Below, piece after piece: positions 2,824 to 21,448 of a stretch of 40,395 nucleotides of DNA; position 1 is the first letter of the stretch, and each line of letters begins with the position of its first letter. The position numbers and the translations under genes are program-made. The notes beneath the pieces were generated by a model. That model worked only from the letters and a program-made list of their open reading frames with translations. It was not told the origin of the DNA and did not search any database. This stretch comes from Thermodesulfovibrionales bacterium (GTDB lineage Bacteria; Nitrospirota; Thermodesulfovibrionia; Thermodesulfovibrionales; SM23-35). Location of the stretch: the NCBI GenBank assembly GCA_030019415.1, contig JASEEX010000001.1, positions 1-40,395 on the forward strand, written 5' to 3'.

Positions 2824-4446
2824 GTGAAGAAAAAGTTTCTCTGGAGGCTGGCCCTCATAGGTCTGACACTTGTCCTCGCAGTCGTATTTTTCCTCCCTAA
2901 TACCCCAGCATTTAAGTACCTGCCTGATTTGTGGAAGAAGCATATGCCCTCCAAAGGGATTGTACTCGGACTCGATCTTCGAGGAGGGCTTCACCTTGTA
3001 TTTGAGGTTGAAGGAGATAAGGCCGTTGAAATAACCACGGAGAGATATGCCTCAACATTAAAGGATGCGCTTATAAAGAGAAAACTAACAGCTGATGTTA
3101 ATAAAAGTGGGCTCAACATCATAATAAGCCCACCAACCCCTGAGATAAGAAAGGCAATTGAGGAAGACTTCTCTACACTCACACCCCTCGAGGCAGCGGG
3201 GAGGCTTGTATATAAACTTTCTGACAGAGAGGCACGGAGGATAAAAGACAATGCTGCTGACCAGGCACTCGAGACGATTCGTAACAGGATAGACCAGTTC
3301 GGTGTTGCAGAGCCGACCATACACAGGCAGGCCGAAAACGAGATTGTTGTCCAGCTCCCCGGGATCAAAGACCCCAAGCGTGCTATTGACATTATAGGCA
3401 GGACTGCACTGCTCGAATTCAAGCTCGTTGACGATGAGGCTCAGGTAGCAGCAGAGCTTCCCCCATCAATTTTACCTGGCGAGGAAGAGAACCTTCTAAG
3501 GCAGTTTGCTGAAAAGATACCTGAGGGTGACGAAATACTCTTCGAGAGAAAGGTCAATAGAGAGACCGGTGCGGTCAGAAAGATACCCCTCCTTCTCAAA
3601 AAACAGGCAGTCCTTACAGGAGACCTCCTGAACGATGCAAGGGTAAATATTGACCCTGCATATAATGAGCCTTATGTCTCGATCTCATTCAATGCCGCAG
3701 GTGCAAAAATCTTCGAGGAGATAACAGGGGCAAATGTTAAAAAGAGGCTTGCCATAATTCTCGATAATACTGTTTATTCAGCCCCTGTCATACAGGAGAG
3801 GATATCGGGAGGTAATGCCCAGATAACAGGAAGCTTCACAATGGGGGAGGCAAAGGACCTAAGCATTATATTAAGGTCAGGCGCACTCCCTGCACCCCTG
3901 AAGATGCTACAGAATGTTACTGTAGGGCCTTCCCTCGGGAAAGATTCAATAGAGGCGGGAAAGGTAGCGGGTATAATCGCCTCTATAGCTGTTGTGGTAT
4001 TCATGATATTCTACTACAGGCTTTCGGGTGTCATCGCTGACTTCGCACTGCTTCTGAACATAATACTCCTCCTCGGTGCGATGGCATCACTCAATGCAAC
4101 GCTCACCCTTCCTGGCATTGCCGGTATTATACTCGCCATAGGTATGGCCGTTGATTCGAACGTCCTTATGTTTGAGAGGATACGAGAGGAATTGAGAGCA
4201 GGTAAAACACCTGCAGCTGCAGTTGACTCAGGATACAAGAAGGCATTCTGGACAATCTTTGACTCCCATGTCACAACATTGATAACAGCAGCAGTGCTAT
4301 TTCAGTTCGGCACAGGCCCTATAAAGGGATTTGCAGTAACTTTATCCCTCGGCGTTGCCATAAACCTCTTTACAGCCCTTATCGGGACCAAGACCGTTTT
4401 TGACCTTATACTGAGCAGGATAAAGGTTAAGACTCTGAGCATATGA
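2824..4446 (+). CDS. secD: Protein translocase subunit SecD
   Basis: SecD with SecF uses the proton motive force to pull exported proteins through SecYEG. The length, 540 residues, is typical. An N-terminal transmembrane helix (about 7-25) is followed by the LGLDLRGG motif (48-55), a large periplasmic P1 domain, and five C-terminal helices. Those helices carry [22 protein letters not shown], the conserved RND-family region, quoted here as two adjoining parts: [13 protein letters not shown] and VLMFERIRE. Translation starts at GTG 2824, with a GGAGG site (2810-2814) upstream. It overlaps secF by 4 bp (ATGA), indicating translational coupling. Confidence 0.96.
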
Positions 4447-7551: not shown

Positions 7552-9678
7552 ATGGAAGAATTAACCATAGACGGCTTGGTTAAGAAGGTCCTTTCCTATA
7601 ATCCCGATGCAGATGTAGAAGTACTGAAGCGGGCCTATCATTTTTCGAGTGAGTCCCACTCCAGCCAGAAAAGGATAGAAGGCTCACCTTATATAGAACA
7701 TCCCGTTGCGGTTGCATCGATCTTAGCTGATATGAAGATGGATACTGCAACCATTGCGGCAGGCCTTCTGCATGACACTATCGAAGATACAGGCAAAACA
7801 AGGGAAGAAATAAAGGAACTTTTTGGCGAAGAGATTGCATTCCTTGTGGAGGCATTGACAAAGCTTTCTCGAATGGTCTTCAAGACGAAAGAGGAGGCCC
7901 AGGCAGAAAACTTCAGGAAGATGTTTTTGGCCATGTCAGAGGATGTCAGGGTAATGCTCATAAAATTTGCAGATAGGCTTCATAATATGCGAACTCTAAA
8001 ACACCTTTCGGAAAATAGACGGCAGAGGATTGCATCAGAAACTCTCGAGATCTATGCACCAATAGCAAATAGGCTCGGCATCGGTTGGTTGAAGATGGAA
8101 CTTGAAGACCTGAGCTTTAAATTCCTCATGCCCAAACTCTATAGTGAACTTGTAAGAAAGGTTGCAAAGAGAAAGGAGGAGCAGGAGGGTTATTTAAATG
8201 AGCTTATTAAGATAGTAAATAATAAATTGAAAGAGGCGGGCCTCCCAGGTGCCGTATCAGGAAGGATAAAGCATCACTATGGCATCTATCAGAAGATGCA
8301 GAAACAGAGGATTACATTCGAGCAGGTTCATGATGTCCTCGGTCTGAGGATAATCACGGATACAAAGGCTAACTGCTATGCAATCCTCGGCCTGATTCAT
8401 TCTCTCTGGACGCCTATTCCTGGCAGATTCAGGGACTATATCGGAGTGCCAAAATCAAACATGTATCGGTCCCTCCACACGACTGTTATTGGGCCAAAGG
8501 GAGAAAGAGTAGAGTTTCAGATAAGAACCAATGAGATGCACATGATTGCAGAGCATGGTATAGCATCCCACTGGAGATATAAAGAAAAAGATGAGGTTGA
8601 TGAAAAGAGCAGCAAATATATCTCATGGCTTAGAGACCTGATACAGGCGCAGAAAGAGCTCTCTGATGCAAAGGATTTCCTTGAAGCTGTTAAAGGTGAG
8701 GTCTTCCCTGATGCTGTATATGTCTTTACCCCGAAGGGAGATATAAAGGAGCTACCTGTTGGTTCAACGCCTGTGGATTTCGCCTACAGCATCCATACAC
8801 AAGTAGGTCATAGATGTATTGGTGCAAAAGTAAATGGCAGAATAGTACCTCTCAGGTATACCCTCAGAAGTGGCGACACAGTCGAGATAATAACCTCTCC
8901 AACACATGGGCCAAGCAGGGACTGGCTTAAATTTGTTGTTACGCAACGCGCAAAGGACCGGATAAAACAGTGGATAAAGACTGAAGAGAGAAAAGAGGCC
9001 ATAGAACTGGGCAGCAGGCTCCTTGAAGGAGAGCTAAAAAGGCATGACTTCAGCCCGTCCGTCCTCAAGTCAGAAGATATGCAGGGGGTTTTAAAATCCT
9101 TTAATATCCAGTCCCTCGAGGATCTCTATGTCTCTGTTGGCTATGGAAGATTATCAGCTCATCAAGTTGTTAACAAACTGGTGCCAGAGAAACCAGTAGA
9201 AGAGGTTCCTGCTGCAAAGGTTACAAGACCTCTAAAGGAGCAGAAGGGCATCACCATAAAGGGAGTGGATAATGTTTTATATCGTACAGCTAAATGTTGT
9301 TTCCCTGTGCCGGGTGACAGGCTTGTAGGTTTTGTAACAAGGGGCAGGGGTGCCACAATCCATCGCGAGGACTGTCCAAACCTCGAAAGGCTCGCTGTTG
9401 ATAATGCAAGGCTCGTTGATGTTGAATGGAGGGCGGTGGGTGATGCGACGTCACCAGCAAAGCTATTTGTAGAAACTGTTGATAGACCCGGCATACTTGC
9501 AAACCTCAGTGCCCTTATATCATCCGTTAATGTCAATATAAGCCATGTAGAGGCAAGTTCAACAGAGGACAAAAAGGCCCATATCGTATTCGTCCTCGAG
9601 GTGAAGGATAAGAGCCAGCTCTCAGGGCTTACCCAGAAGATTGCACAGATGGAGGGAGTCCTGAAAGTGAGCAGATAA
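7552..9678 (+). CDS. Bifunctional (p)ppGpp synthetase/hydrolase (RelA/SpoT)
   Basis: This long RSH enzyme makes and degrades the stringent-response alarmone. The N-terminal HD hydrolase domain is intact, with His50 in YIEHPVAVA and the His74-Asp75 pair in LLHDTIEDTG, so hydrolysis should work. The synthetase domain follows, with GLRIITDT and FRDYIGVPKSNMYRSLHTT. The TGS domain starts near DAVYVFTPKGDIKELP (about 385-445). A C-terminal ACT domain begins near KLFVETVDRPGILANL. The length, 708 residues, is typical of Rel. It is the only RSH seen in the window. The region upstream is filled with repeats, and the ATG lacks a good ribosome binding site. Confidence 0.95.
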   Translation: MEELTIDGLVKKVLSYNPDADVEVLKRAYHFSSESHSSQKRIEGSPYIEHPVAVASILADMKMDTATIAAGLLHDTIEDTGKTREEIKELFGEEIAFLVEALTKLSRMVFKTKEEAQAENFRKMFLAMSEDVRVMLIKFADRLHNMRTLKHLSENRRQRIASETLEIYAPIANRLGIGWLKMELEDLSFKFLMPKLYSELVRKVAKRKEEQEGYLNELIKIVNNKLKEAGLPGAVSGRIKHHYGIYQKMQKQRITFEQVHDVLGLRIITDTKANCYAILGLIHSLWTPIPGRFRDYIGVPKSNMYRSLHTTVIGPKGERVEFQIRTNEMHMIAEHGIASHWRYKEKDEVDEKSSKYISWLRDLIQAQKELSDAKDFLEAVKGEVFPDAVYVFTPKGDIKELPVGSTPVDFAYSIHTQVGHRCIGAKVNGRIVPLRYTLRSGDTVEIITSPTHGPSRDWLKFVVTQRAKDRIKQWIKTEERKEAIELGSRLLEGELKRHDFSPSVLKSEDMQGVLKSFNIQSLEDLYVSVGYGRLSAHQVVNKLVPEKPVEEVPAAKVTRPLKEQKGITIKGVDNVLYRTAKCCFPVPGDRLVGFVTRGRGATIHREDCPNLERLAVDNARLVDVEWRAVGDATSPAKLFVETVDRPGILANLSALISSVNVNISHVEASSTEDKKAHIVFVLEVKDKSQLSGLTQKIAQMEGVLKVSR

Positions 9679-9688
9679 CAATATATGT

Positions 9689-10141
9689 ATGGATAAGGAC
9701 GGTATCGCATTTGTAGAGCTTCTGATTGTAATAAGCATAATTGCGATTTTGGCGGTGTTAACTGTCCCGGTAATTAAGGCAAACAAGCTTGATGGCGCTA
9801 CAAGGATGATTTACTCTGATTTATTCCTTGCAAGGATGCAGGCGATAGCCAAGGGAAATAACTTCAGGGTTATATTCAATACAGAAGATGGTCATACATA
9901 TGATAATCATACCTACTGGATTCATAACGATAAAAATAGTAATAGCGATATAGAGGCAGGTGAAGAGTACACCCCTAAAGATATACATAAAGATTATAAA
10001 GGGGTAACATTTACTGTTAATAGCAACGCTACCTTTAATCCAACGGGGACTTCTAATGCTGGTACTATTACACTAAAAGACCAATCTGGTTCAGAAAAAA
10101 AGGTTATATTTTCCTGGACAGGGAGGGTAAGGATAGAGTGA
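9689..10141 (+). CDS. GspH/FimT-like minor pseudopilin
   Basis: This small type IV pilin-like protein (150 residues) is the first of four minor pilin genes. The class III leader is very short: MDKDG, then IAFVELLIVISIIAILAVL. If prepilin peptidase cuts after Gly5, Glu falls at the conserved +5 position. The usual FTLVE is altered to IAFVE, with Ile at +1 instead of Phe. The rest fits the GspH/FimT pattern, with RMIYSDLFLARMQAIAKG helix and a beta-rich C-terminus ending VIFSWTGRVRIE. Its stop overlaps the next start by 4 bp. Minor pilins of this class prime pilus assembly at the inner membrane. Confidence 0.85.
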   Translation: MDKDGIAFVELLIVISIIAILAVLTVPVIKANKLDGATRMIYSDLFLARMQAIAKGNNFRVIFNTEDGHTYDNHTYWIHNDKNSNSDIEAGEEYTPKDIHKDYKGVTFTVNSNATFNPTGTSNAGTITLKDQSGSEKKVIFSWTGRVRIE

Positions 10142-10545
10142 TATGCCACCATAAAAACCAGAATGGCTTCACATTGGTAGAGGTTCTCATAGCCCTGGCC
10201 ATCCTATCCATAGGTCTTCTTGCCCTCGCTGGATTGCAGGTAGTAGTGATAAAGGGCAATGCAGGCTCTAAGAATCTGACATCGGCAGTTATTCTGGCAG
10301 AGGCAAAGATAGAGCAATTAAAGAGGAATGGATTTGCCAATCTGGTAAACGGTGACTTTCAGGATCCGAATAACCCTGTTAATGAGACCGGTCAGGCAGG
10401 GGGCATTTTCACAAGATCCTGGGTAATTGATGATTATCTCGTTTCAGCAGATATGAAACAGATAACTGTGACCTTAACATGGACAGATTCCTTAGGGAAT
10501 CATAACATCCCTGTAACAACAGTATTTTCGAAGGCTGTGGATTGA
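10138..10545 (+). CDS. pilV: PilV-like minor pilin
   Basis: This 135-residue prepilin has a leader ending NQNG and a mature start FTLVEVLIALAILSIGLLAL, a textbook class III signal with Glu at +5. It is followed by LAGLQVVVIKGNAGSKNLTSA, typical of PilV/GspI-type proteins. The downstream part is a short beta-rich domain without Cys. The ATG overlaps the upstream pseudopilin gene (ATGA), and pilW starts 2 bp after the stop. It should act with PilW, PilX and FimT as the initiation complex for a type IV pilus. Symbol by position and similarity only. Confidence 0.8.
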   Translation: MICHHKNQNGFTLVEVLIALAILSIGLLALAGLQVVVIKGNAGSKNLTSAVILAEAKIEQLKRNGFANLVNGDFQDPNNPVNETGQAGGIFTRSWVIDDYLVSADMKQITVTLTWTDSLGNHNIPVTTVFSKAVD

Positions 10546-10546
10546 A

Positions 10547-11308
10547 ATGGATAAAAAGGGGTTTACCCCGTTAGATAGAGAACATCTAACGGGGTTTACA
10601 TTAGTAGAGTTGATGATTGCTATGGTAATTTCACTCATTGTCCTTGCAGGTATTTATAATGTCTTTATATCATCCAGCAGAAGCTATTTTATTCAGGAGT
10701 CCATAACTGATATGCAACAGAATGCAAGGGCATCAATAGAATTTATGGCAAGGGAATTGAGAAATGCAGTTGTAATAGAGGAGACCGATACAACATCAGG
10801 TAATAGCAGTATAACCTTTTATACAGATGGAGACAATGCAGATGTGGGCGTATCTACAGGCGGAAACACAAATACCACCTTAAATGACACAACTAAATCA
10901 TGGACTACTAACAAATGGCAGAATAAGATATTAGCGATTGTCGATGGCACCGGGAAAGGTCAAACAAGAACCATCAGCTCAAACACCTCTACTCAGTTAA
11001 CAACTACTTCTAACTGGACAACAGTTCCAGACAGTACATCCGTTTATCATATTGGTGTTGAGAAGAAAGGGTTCTCAAGAACAAGTGATAATAATGTCCT
11101 TCGTTATACAAAAGGTGGTAGTGTAAATCAGCCATTTACTGAGAATATAACCAGTCTAACCTTAACAGCAGATGATCTAAATATTAATAATATTAAGAGA
11201 ATAGATATTGAATTGACCGCAAGGACATCGAGGACAGATCCGAATATGAATAACCAATACCACTATTATACTGTTAATACCTCAATAAAATTGAGATTAA
11301 GGGGGTGA
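10547..11308 (+). CDS. pilW: PilW-like minor pilin with duplicated prepilin motif
   Basis: This is a 253-residue prepilin. A normal N-terminus would read MDKKG then FTLVELMIAMVISLIVLAG. Here the text GFT occurs twice: MDKKGFTPLDREHLTGFTLV. Eleven codons separate the two copies, produced by a 33-bp palindrome insertion. The second GFTLVE still offers a proper peptidase site with Glu at +5, so the protein is probably functional with a longer leader. The mature part has the helix IYNVFISSSRSYFIQESI and a Thr/Ser/Asn-rich beta domain. It overlaps pilX by a few bases. Confidence 0.82.
   Translation: MDKKGFTPLDREHLTGFTLVELMIAMVISLIVLAGIYNVFISSSRSYFIQESITDMQQNARASIEFMARELRNAVVIEETDTTSGNSSITFYTDGDNADVGVSTGGNTNTTLNDTTKSWTTNKWQNKILAIVDGTGKGQTRTISSNTSTQLTTTSNWTTVPDSTSVYHIGVEKKGFSRTSDNNVLRYTKGGSVNQPFTENITSLTLTADDLNINNIKRIDIELTARTSRTDPNMNNQYHYYTVNTSIKLRLRG
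10558..10599 (+). repeat. 33-bp palindrome insertion in the pilW leader, with 9-bp flanking duplication
   Basis: GGGGTTTAC occurs at 10558-10566 and again at 10591-10599, exactly 33 bp apart. Between them is an 11-bp perfect stem, CCCCGTTAGAT (10566-10576) and ATCTAACGGGG (10584-10594), with a 7-base loop. The unit adds 11 codons in frame and forms a stable hairpin close behind the start codon. Confidence 0.9.
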
Positions 11309-11313
11309 ATCTC

Positions 11314-12492
11314 ATGGTATTTAAAGACAAAAAAGGCATAGCCTTAGTAGCAGCCTTGCTGATCCTTTTAGCCCTTTCAATAATAGGGGTAATTGCTATA
11401 ACCACAACAGTGACTGACACAAAGATCTCAGGGAATCTAAAGGATATTAAACAGGCATTTTACCTCGCAGATGCAGGTATAAGTCATGCAGGTTATCTTC
11501 TTCAACAAAATATAGGTACCTGGGACACTTATCTCCCATCTCCCTTTATAGATACTACTAATTTAGGGGCCGGGAGCTATAGCGTTACTATCAGCAATAT
11601 TGGAACTACTGTAATCAGAAAGAAAGTGGTATCAACCGGAAAAACCTCAACAGGGTCTAAGGCAATAATTGAGGCAATATTCAATAGAGCGCCATTCATT
11701 CCTGATGATGCAATAACCACCAATGGAAATCTAAAAATTTCGGGAAAGCCGAACATAGCGGGTTCAAATGGAGGTGCTCATTCCAATAAAGACCTTGAAA
11801 TCAAAGGGAGCCCGAATATTGCCCAGACCGCTTCAGCCTCCGGGACTGCCTCTCCTTCTCCACCATACATAAGTAGCGCTCCAACAGTGGATATACCAAC
11901 AATTAACCCGACCCAGTTTGCCATTTACGCTGACTATCAATTAAGGTCAGATGGTAAGGTCTACAAGGCAGGCTCTACGCTACCGGAGGATATGCCAGGC
12001 GGAAAATGGTACGGCTGGGATTACAGCAGTGGCAAATGGACTTTAAGTAGTAATGATACTCCCCCTCCTGGGATGCTATATATAGAAGGAGGTGCGAATG
12101 TATCGGGAAACCCGGGAAGTGCCTCTGACCCGTGGCAAACAACCCTTATTGCCACAGGGAATATTGAGATATCTGGAAATCCTATCATCGCTAACTATAA
12201 GGACCTTTCAGATCCGATAGGTGTTCAAAATCTCTTATTCGTTGCCGGCGGCGAGCTAAGGATAAGTGGCAACGTGACTCAAACCTTTGATGGGATCATA
12301 GCTGCCCATGGACATATAGAGGTTAGCGGGAATCCCACACTTAATGGATCCATAATAGCGGAGAATGCGACTGGAATCGGGACTGAAAATAAGGTTTCTG
12401 GAAATATGACTATTACTTACAATGGTGGTCTGCTCTCCCCTTTTATTAGTAATACAGTTAATATATTAGCCTGGCGTCAGGTTAACGAGTAA
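11314..12492 (+). CDS. pilX: PilX-like pilus assembly protein
   Basis: The N-terminus DKKGIALVAALLILLALSII is the PilX type, in which GIALV replaces the usual GFTLVE. It is followed by DIKQAFYLADAGISHAGYLL, also typical of PilX-family proteins. Downstream, residues from about 140 on are rich in SGNP-type repeats (ISGKPNI, IKGSPNI, VSGNPGS, ISGNPII, VSGNPTL), which suggests a beta-solenoid-like domain. The ATG at 11314 has GGGGGTGA seven bases upstream and is preferred over the in-frame GTG at 11305. It is the last gene of the minor pilin operon; no PilY1 or major pilin follows. Confidence 0.8.
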   Translation: MVFKDKKGIALVAALLILLALSIIGVIAITTTVTDTKISGNLKDIKQAFYLADAGISHAGYLLQQNIGTWDTYLPSPFIDTTNLGAGSYSVTISNIGTTVIRKKVVSTGKTSTGSKAIIEAIFNRAPFIPDDAITTNGNLKISGKPNIAGSNGGAHSNKDLEIKGSPNIAQTASASGTASPSPPYISSAPTVDIPTINPTQFAIYADYQLRSDGKVYKAGSTLPEDMPGGKWYGWDYSSGKWTLSSNDTPPPGMLYIEGGANVSGNPGSASDPWQTTLIATGNIEISGNPIIANYKDLSDPIGVQNLLFVAGGELRISGNVTQTFDGIIAAHGHIEVSGNPTLNGSIIAENATGIGTENKVSGNMTITYNGGLLSPFISNTVNILAWRQVNE

Positions 12493-20228: not shown

Positions 20229-20879
20229 CTACTTAGTCTTTCCTGAAAGCAGACCCGATCTTTTTATTGCCCCCTGTAGATAATCTTTAAATTTCTCCGG
20301 GAATAACCATTTTATACCTAACTTCTCTGCCCATTTTATTAAGCCCTGATCTGCTGTAATCAGCAGGGCATCCAACTCCATTGCAAGCAGTAGAAGGTCA
20401 ACATCCTCCTTGCTGTCTATTATACCTTCCCTCAAGGCATCTCGATATTTCCGCCTCAGGTCTTGAATAATCTCATCTGGGCTTCTCTTTTCAACACTTC
20501 TTACAGCCTTTTCCGCAATTCTTAACCCCTTATTCACCCTCTCCCTTATATCCTCTATCAACTCGTATAAAAGAAAGGCCGGGCATTTTAATTCGTGTTT
20601 TTTTGGCGGCTTCTGGTGGAGTATCACAAGTAAGTCCTCGGGTATCTTATCCTTTTCAACAAAATACAGAAGCTCCTCAAAAATAGATGGGGGCATATAA
20701 AACTCGAGTATATGGATCTGGGCTGCTAAGAAAAGGAACGCCTCAAGGGCCTCTGTAGGCGTATCTCCGAGACTCTTCCTTACATCAGGATTAACAAATA
20801 GGCTGGTATCTAATACAACCCTGTAAGGGTAGAAGGTTCCTTCAGGCTCGCCCGAAGACAATGTTTCTTTGGCATCCAA
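20229..20879 (-). CDS. RNA ligase partner / HARP-type PIN-domain RNase
   Basis: This 216-residue protein matches the UPF0278 'RNA ligase partner' family, to which HARP (homolog of Aquifex RNase P, Aq_880) belongs. HARP proteins are RNA-free RNase P enzymes that remove tRNA 5' leaders. The PIN core starts VVLDTSLFVNPDVRKSLGD with Asp24. A long helical insertion ('spike', about 80-150) follows, and then the acidic cluster IIDSKEDVDLLLLAM (Asp159, Asp161) and LITADQGLIKWAEKLGI with Asp177. These acidic residues fit a metal-dependent nuclease. It converges with the Rnl3 ligase gene. Whether this organism also has RNase P RNA cannot be seen here, so its in vivo role is open. Confidence 0.82.
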   Translation of the reverse strand: MDAKETLSSGEPEGTFYPYRVVLDTSLFVNPDVRKSLGDTPTEALEAFLFLAAQIHILEFYMPPSIFEELLYFVEKDKIPEDLLVILHQKPPKKHELKCPAFLLYELIEDIRERVNKGLRIAEKAVRSVEKRSPDEIIQDLRRKYRDALREGIIDSKEDVDLLLLAMELDALLITADQGLIKWAEKLGIKWLFPEKFKDYLQGAIKRSGLLSGKTK

Positions 20880-21106
20880 AATTTAAGGCCTCATTCCCTA
20901 ATATCTCTGTCATCTATAGATTATCAATAAAGGGGGCTTAAAAGTAAACCCCTTTAGAAAAATTTCCTACTTTCTAACGGGCGTGAAGAGAAAAACGATG
21001 CTTCTCAATGACTTTTTCTGACTTCTCTGATATATTTTCAATGTTATAGTTATCCTTTCACCTTTTATGTGTTCAAACCCTTGAGGTTAAAATTCAGGAG
21101 GTCTTT

Positions 21107-21448
21107 ATGGAATGTGTATTCTGCAGGATTATAGAGAAGGAACTACCAGCAAAGATAATATATGAAGACGATCTTTCAGTCGCTTTTGAGGATGTTAACC
21201 CCCAGTGTCCTGTTCATACTATTTTGATACCTAAAAAACATATCTCCACAAACCTTGATATAAAAGAAGAAGACAACGCCCTTATTGGCCATTTGTTCCA
21301 GGTCGCTAACAGGATTGCAAAGGATAAGGGTATAGCAGAGCGTGGCTTCAGGCTTGTGATGAACTGCAATCCCGAGTCAGGGCAAACGATATACCATTTA
21401 CACCTTCATCTCCTCGGCGGCCGCAGGATGTACTGGCCACCAGGATAG
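21107..21448 (+). CDS. HIT family (Hint-like) nucleotide hydrolase
   Basis: Histidine-triad proteins of this branch hydrolyse adenosine phosphoramidates and related nucleotides. The protein has 113 residues, the usual Hint length. The N-terminus MECVFCRII and the middle IPKKHI segment are typical, and the HIT signature [13 protein letters not shown] is intact with all three His. A GGAGG site lies five bases before the ATG. The stop codon (21446-21448) touches the CCA end of a tRNA-Leu gene on the opposite strand, without a single spacer base. It seems to be a single-gene unit. Confidence 0.95.

Follow-up and report, generated by a model that had tools for sequence, protein, structure and literature searches.

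Rickettsia is the best-known host of in-frame palindromic elements. The Rickettsia palindromic elements (RPE) are short palindromes lying in frame in many unrelated genes, where they encode a recognisable peptide (PMC10969869), and no transposase is linked to the CGTC-tagged RPE-4/RPE-6 repeats (PMC3733652). The bcr repeats of Bacillus cereus are dispersed and flanked by TTTA(T), and a mobility resembling site-specific recombination has been proposed for them (PMC6542083). IS200/IS605 elements have hairpin ends and are inserted in a strand-polar manner 3' of a fixed short sequence (PMC6006769). The element studied here is, with high probability, a mobile, non-autonomous palindrome inserted in frame in a pilW-like prepilin gene.

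The gene was found at positions 10547–11308 on the forward strand of the window, i.e., the whole stretch of 40,395 nt that was analysed. Its ORF reads MDKKGFTPLDREHLTGFTLVELMI, encodes 253 aa with an N-terminal methylation motif, and contains the insertion as codons 7–17. PF07963 was matched above the cut-off, the match starting at residue 16, which is the second of two GFT motifs. All features of the insertion lie on the same strand. The left TTTA (10562–10565), which is the target copy and part of the host codons GGG TTT AC., is followed by the 29-bp palindromic element CCCCGTTAGATAGAGAACATCTAACGGGG with 11-bp arms and a 7-nt loop (10566–10594) and by a second TTTA (10595–10598). The 29 bp and the second TTTA together form the inserted 33 bp (10566–10598), a delimitation which also draws on the empty and filled pairs of the repeat family and on the TTTA flanking most of its copies on both sides. 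The insert is translated as TPLDREHLTGF. Direct reading placed the first GFT codons (GGG TTT ACC), followed by P-L-D, at 10559–10567, and the regenerated GFT codons at 10592–10600.

The preliminary description had reported a 33-bp unit between two copies of GGGGTTTAC, and the start-to-start distance of these copies (10558–10566 and 10591–10599) was verified as 33. The 11 added codons and the two GFT motifs, the second followed by LVELMI, were likewise seen in the ORF. The stem is perfect, as claimed, but comprises 12 bp (ACCCCGTTAGAT, 10565–10576, and ATCTAACGGGGT, 10584–10595, with the 7-nt loop), one pair more than the 11 bp given. As RNA, the region folded with −25.2 kcal/mol (z = −2.5). 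No Rfam match with E ≤ 1 was obtained in 9600–11400. Two pilin-like genes of the same cluster lie upstream on the forward strand (9689–10141 and 10138–10545) and have no insertion; downstream on this strand is a gene (11305–12492) named pilX-like from its position and N-terminus. Homologues of pilW in relatives were distant (at most ~49% identity over partial matches) and aligned from the second GFT onward. The rsh gene is present in most of the taxonomic family with 74–84% identity, and no pilin cluster was found beside it in the relatives, with the sole exception of one unrelated pilin-like ORF (locus L164). For pilW itself, it is the family rule together with these distant homologues that points to an insertion event.

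The half-site CTAACGGGG was found 110 times in the 1.94-Mb genome vs. 14 times for the reversed control. Copies of the family follow the rule TTTA-CCCCGTTAGA...loop...TCTAACGGGG-TTTA(C/T), and the unit is often merely 30–37 bp long. An unbiased sample of 726 kb was composed of the window and 40 stretches chosen regardless of the repeat; 15 palindromes with a stem score of at least 9 had direct TTTA flanks in it, and the seven other flank combinations gave 0–4. The stems differ and include several unrelated sequences (CCCCGTTAGA, CCCCGCACC, CCCCGCCCC, GGCAGCACTTTC), and the TTTA flanks are constant in most copies. In the 44 units flanked by TTTA at both ends, the right-hand TTTA was followed by C in 29 and by T in 12, the background order being T > A > C > G; upstream of the left TTTA, no shared sequence was detected. 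Seven copies had non-TTTA flanks matching on both sides (CTTG three times, TTTG twice, TTGA and CTTA), and others matched on one side only.

The window contains one further copy, degenerate in sequence (CGCCCGTTAGAAAG..CTAAAGGGG, then TTTAC), on the reverse strand at 20948–20981, in the intergenic region between the ORF 20229–20879 and a HIT-like gene (21107–21448). On contig C122 (locus L077, ~3920–4020), hairpins separated by TTTA are arranged in tandem: a related unit is followed by two copies of TTTACCCTCGCTCCTCTGTGAGGGGCGGGG, which looks as though newer copies had entered the TTTA end of older ones. Of 396 genomes sampled from the phylum, 25 contained at least one full exact unit; the distribution is patchy and extends beyond the own order, and the loops differ. 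Viral contigs gave no exact unit match, and a literature search by the half-site returned no relevant paper among the matches listed.

Three filled/empty pairs were obtained, with insertion at TTTA (once at CTTG) and repetition of 4 bases. A 37-nt hairpin plus TTTA is nested at TTTA inside a longer copy (locus L218), and a 33-nt hairpin plus CTTG is nested at CTTG inside another longer copy (locus L205). All 15 aligned Ppx orthologues of the taxonomic family are without the peptide NPVRKSFSNGV, 13 of them lacking exactly 11 residues and two being aligned with one more. The earlier view of the palindrome as mobile and REP-like was correct. In copies of 64–154 bp, the inner sequence reveals the orientation, which relative to TTTA is identical in all of them (10 of 10 loci in one cluster and 6 of 6 in another); the insertion is therefore polar. 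Such longer members at the loci L218, L205, and L050 are MITE-like with hairpins nested in them, and they fall into at least two subfamilies, in which the inner sequence is conserved.

To evaluate the reading frame, the flanks were joined by script, and units whose empty site was spanned by a long ORF were taken as in-ORF copies. The frame was kept by 20 of 23 in-ORF copies (8 of 11 in the own genome and 12 of 12 in other genomes), and a multiple of three was added by 36 of 82 copies elsewhere (14/33 and 22/49, respectively). For the hand-curated own cases, the values were 12/12 in frame vs. 9/28 (Fisher p 6e-5). The three own in-ORF copies that break the frame may lie in non-coding ORFs or reflect misplaced start codons. 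According to Pfam, the interrupted genes encode Ppx/GppA, a B12-binding radical SAM protein, MqnD, MreC, and JAB in the own genome, and M16 peptidase, FdhD, a CCG/Fe-S protein, KdtA, PNPOx, a PilN-domain protein, a periplasmic binding protein (PBP), TldD, and MreD in other genomes. QueH (locus L214) was kept as a candidate only, the Pfam alignment having no clear gap.

In the radical SAM protein, the match of the B12-binding domain is broken at the insert. The insert in MqnD falls within a stretch of 57 residues, for which the solved homologue 2czl has ~4 residues; part of this stretch resembles a further repeat. At this locus (L188, 5122–5223), the element is apparently nested in a repeat of the CCCCCCTTTA/TAAAGGGGGG type coding for NPPLPPF..TKGGRGGI, which is itself inserted in mqnD. 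One helicase-like gene of another genome (G087, contig C155, locus L285) contains two in-frame copies, at 2004 and 3108 (TPLDSKHLTGF). The peptides encoded by the element are FTPLE/D..LTGF or YPVR..SNGV on one strand and NPVR..SNGV on the other.

A search for a REP-type transposase had been proposed, and seven Y1_Tnp genes above the Pfam cut-off were indeed present in the genome. For four Y1 proteins tested against NCBIfam, the best match was REP_Tyr_transpos, with one score of 80.1 vs. a cut-off of 80 and the others below it. Copies flanking a Y1 gene on both sides were found at none of the 7 own and ~28 related loci sampled; only the pilin insertion of contig C121 lies upstream of one. No autonomous parent element was detected among the unpaired half-sites, at the Y1 loci, or in the 726-kb sample of the own genome and the additional loci. 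One short RAYT-like gene (contig C132, locus L015, 84–800) has a different flanking repeat of its own, TTACACCTCCGAGGTGTAA on both sides, which represents a separate repeat family. Since insertion is strand-polar and takes place 3' of a tetranucleotide, the family may be mobilised in trans by a single-strand transposase (HUH/Y1, IS200/IS605-like or RAYT), to which we assign slightly less than an even chance. Where both flanks match without being TTTA, a true target-site duplication by an enzyme of another kind fits at least as well as an insertion of the IS200/IS605 type.

An enzyme of that kind could be a transposase of the DDE type that acts on short inverted repeats and duplicates 4 bp of the target site; the family would then be a MITE. 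The terminal inverted repeats, the MITE-like copies of 50–154 bp, and the 4-bp flanks, which match though they vary, are in favour of this rather unlikely explanation. However, the long copies are fixed in orientation relative to TTTA despite the same inverted repeat at both ends, and an autonomous element with such ends was absent from the sequence examined. The third possibility is spread resembling site-specific recombination or mediated by RNA, as proposed for the bcr elements (TTTAT motif) of B. cereus. Similar recombination-like or RNA-mediated spread has been proposed for the small dispersed repeats of Nostoc. We regard such a route as improbable for the present family as well; it would account for the polarity and for the lack of a linked transposase, and the TTTA(Y) flank motif is shared with the bcr elements (PMC6542083), but neither a recombinase nor an RNA intermediate is directly evidenced. 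A resemblance of GTTAGAT..ATCTAAC to the core sites of integron attC was dropped, the order of the halves being presumably the reverse of that in attC.

Polar insertion at TTTA would also explain the two GFT motifs of pilW. The palindrome would have been inserted directly 3' of TTTA within GGG TTT ACA, leaving a second TTTA at the far end, and the empty allele would have carried GGGGTTTACATTAGTAG without the insert. After insertion, G-F-T-P would stand on the left and G-F-T would be rebuilt on the right. The right arm and the repeated target are in the frame CTA ACG GGG TTT A, so the second GFT arises from the tail of the element itself, CTAACGGGG+TTTA, which is translated as L-T-G-F; in the regenerated codons, GGG belongs to the element stem, TTT A to the repeated target, and CA to the host. 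The preliminary description was right that a palindrome inserted in the GFT codons regenerates the motif, the source being this LTGF tail. It had assumed a duplication of 9 bp, of which 4 bp (TTTA) are repeated: among the nine matching bases, TTTA alone results from the insertion mechanism, and GGGG and C match by coincidence, the left GGGG being the host Gly codon and the right one the element's stem.

More generally, the element reads F-T-P-L-E/D ... L-T-G-F in one forward frame; if its length and the 4 repeated bases together make a multiple of 3, a copy placed in the TTT-A frame leaves the gene open and ends in Gly-Phe. In a prepilin, the prepilin peptidase site G^F(T) would be restored and the leader alone would become longer, 16 residues vs. 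5; we infer this to be the sole effect on the protein. The first pilW motif has P at +3 and D instead of Glu at +5 and is not followed by a hydrophobic helix; therefore, by the rules for prepilin peptidase, cleavage is expected at the second site.

A second pilin gene of the genome, on contig C121, was hit at the same GFT codons by a palindrome of other sequence, independently and with the same rescue. In comparison with a pilin gene of a relative (G015), it has exactly 30 nt extra, CCCCGCACTTTCCTAAAAGTGCTGGG+TTTA, with an exact junction, and 49 of 57 flanking bases are identical. This pilin is located ~60 bp directly upstream of a RAYT-like gene (locus L009, 690–2133), a neighbourhood that may be due to chance. 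Among 176 genomes of the order, TTTACCC..GGNTTTACNYTNRTNGAR was retrieved from these two genes only. The duplicated GFT, which had been expected in related genomes, thus occurred in 1 of 176, though with a second case in that genome; the order's other genomes are without it, but the in-frame palindrome itself was present in several other genomes. Given an estimated ~25,000 TTTA sites in coding DNA, 12–30 in-gene copies, and ten pilin GFT sites, 0.005–0.012 pilin GFT matches would be expected; two were observed among ~10 pilin genes, a count made post hoc. The best explanation of this surplus is that harmless insertions survive selection: the leader tolerates additional length, and the peptidase site is restored.

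The striking of two pilins at the same codons against this expectation is also what speaks for the earlier proposal, in which the element recognises GGGGTTTAC in pilins, duplicates 9 bp, and uses them as a dedicated safe harbour. Such an element would prefer GGGTTTAC over other TTTA sites. However, most of the sampled copies lie outside pilins, the target is TTTA with nothing common upstream of it, the left flank in the C121 pilin is GGGTTTTA rather than GGGGTTTA, and in the nested empty/filled pairs the repeat comprises 4 bp only. The proposal is very improbable, and GFT targeting as a general rule is refuted; of the harbour idea, there remains the number of pilin matches, which exceeds expectation. 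That the extra residues of pilW are ordinary variation of the prepilin leader, the length of which is variable, with a palindrome arising by chance, is practically excluded by the genome-wide family with its empty sites and by the excess of half-sites over the reversed control.

What the sequences show is a repeat family with a TTTA rule, long copies in fixed orientation, sites in both the empty and the filled state, and copies that persist in frame within genes. As a tentative overall reading, in which we place rather limited confidence, a TTTA-directed, strand-polar hairpin family, patchy over the phylum, would be moved in trans by a Y1 enzyme; its ends FTPL..LTGF would make it unusually harmless in genes, and prepilins would form a hot spot of survival since the site is rebuilt. 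The family represents an independent case of in-frame palindromic elements in another group. With a readable TTTA rule, empty sites, and a fixed orientation, the mobility of such repeats becomes testable. A mobile element adds 10–35 residues to conserved enzymes and re-creates a protein-processing site. Peptides such as NPVR..SNGV and FTPLE..LTGF within proteins can derive from the element, which calls for caution in annotation.

The present family shares features with several known systems. Like MITEs, it has terminal inverted repeats and a 4-bp target repeat, seen in the empty/filled pairs and the co-varying flanks. It shares with IS200/IS605 a strand-polar insertion 3' of a tetranucleotide; IS200/IS605 elements, in contrast, encode a transposase and have separate end hairpins and guide tetranucleotides, none of which were seen here. 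It resembles the bcr repeats in its dispersal and flanking TTTA motif; the bcr repeats, however, are 100–400 bp long and belong to another phylum, and in-frame intragenic spread is not reported for them in the passages considered (PMC6542083). With intragenic REP/REPIN and RAYT systems, the family has in common stem-loops of 20–40 bp, tens of copies, some of them intragenic, and RAYT-like genes (below or at the NCBIfam cut-off), but it is without GTAG/GTGG at the 5' foot, its RAYT genes are not flanked, and it has strict TTTA direct repeats. Like RPE, it lies in frame in unrelated protein genes, encodes a recognisable peptide, and has no linked transposase. It differs from RPE in having TTTA on both sides and no CGTC tag at an end, in its sequence and host group, in its often short unit, and in showing a target repeat and empty sites. 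The family is of a known kind, the in-frame palindromic repeats; its sequence, its insertion rule, and its host group are new as far as our searches show.
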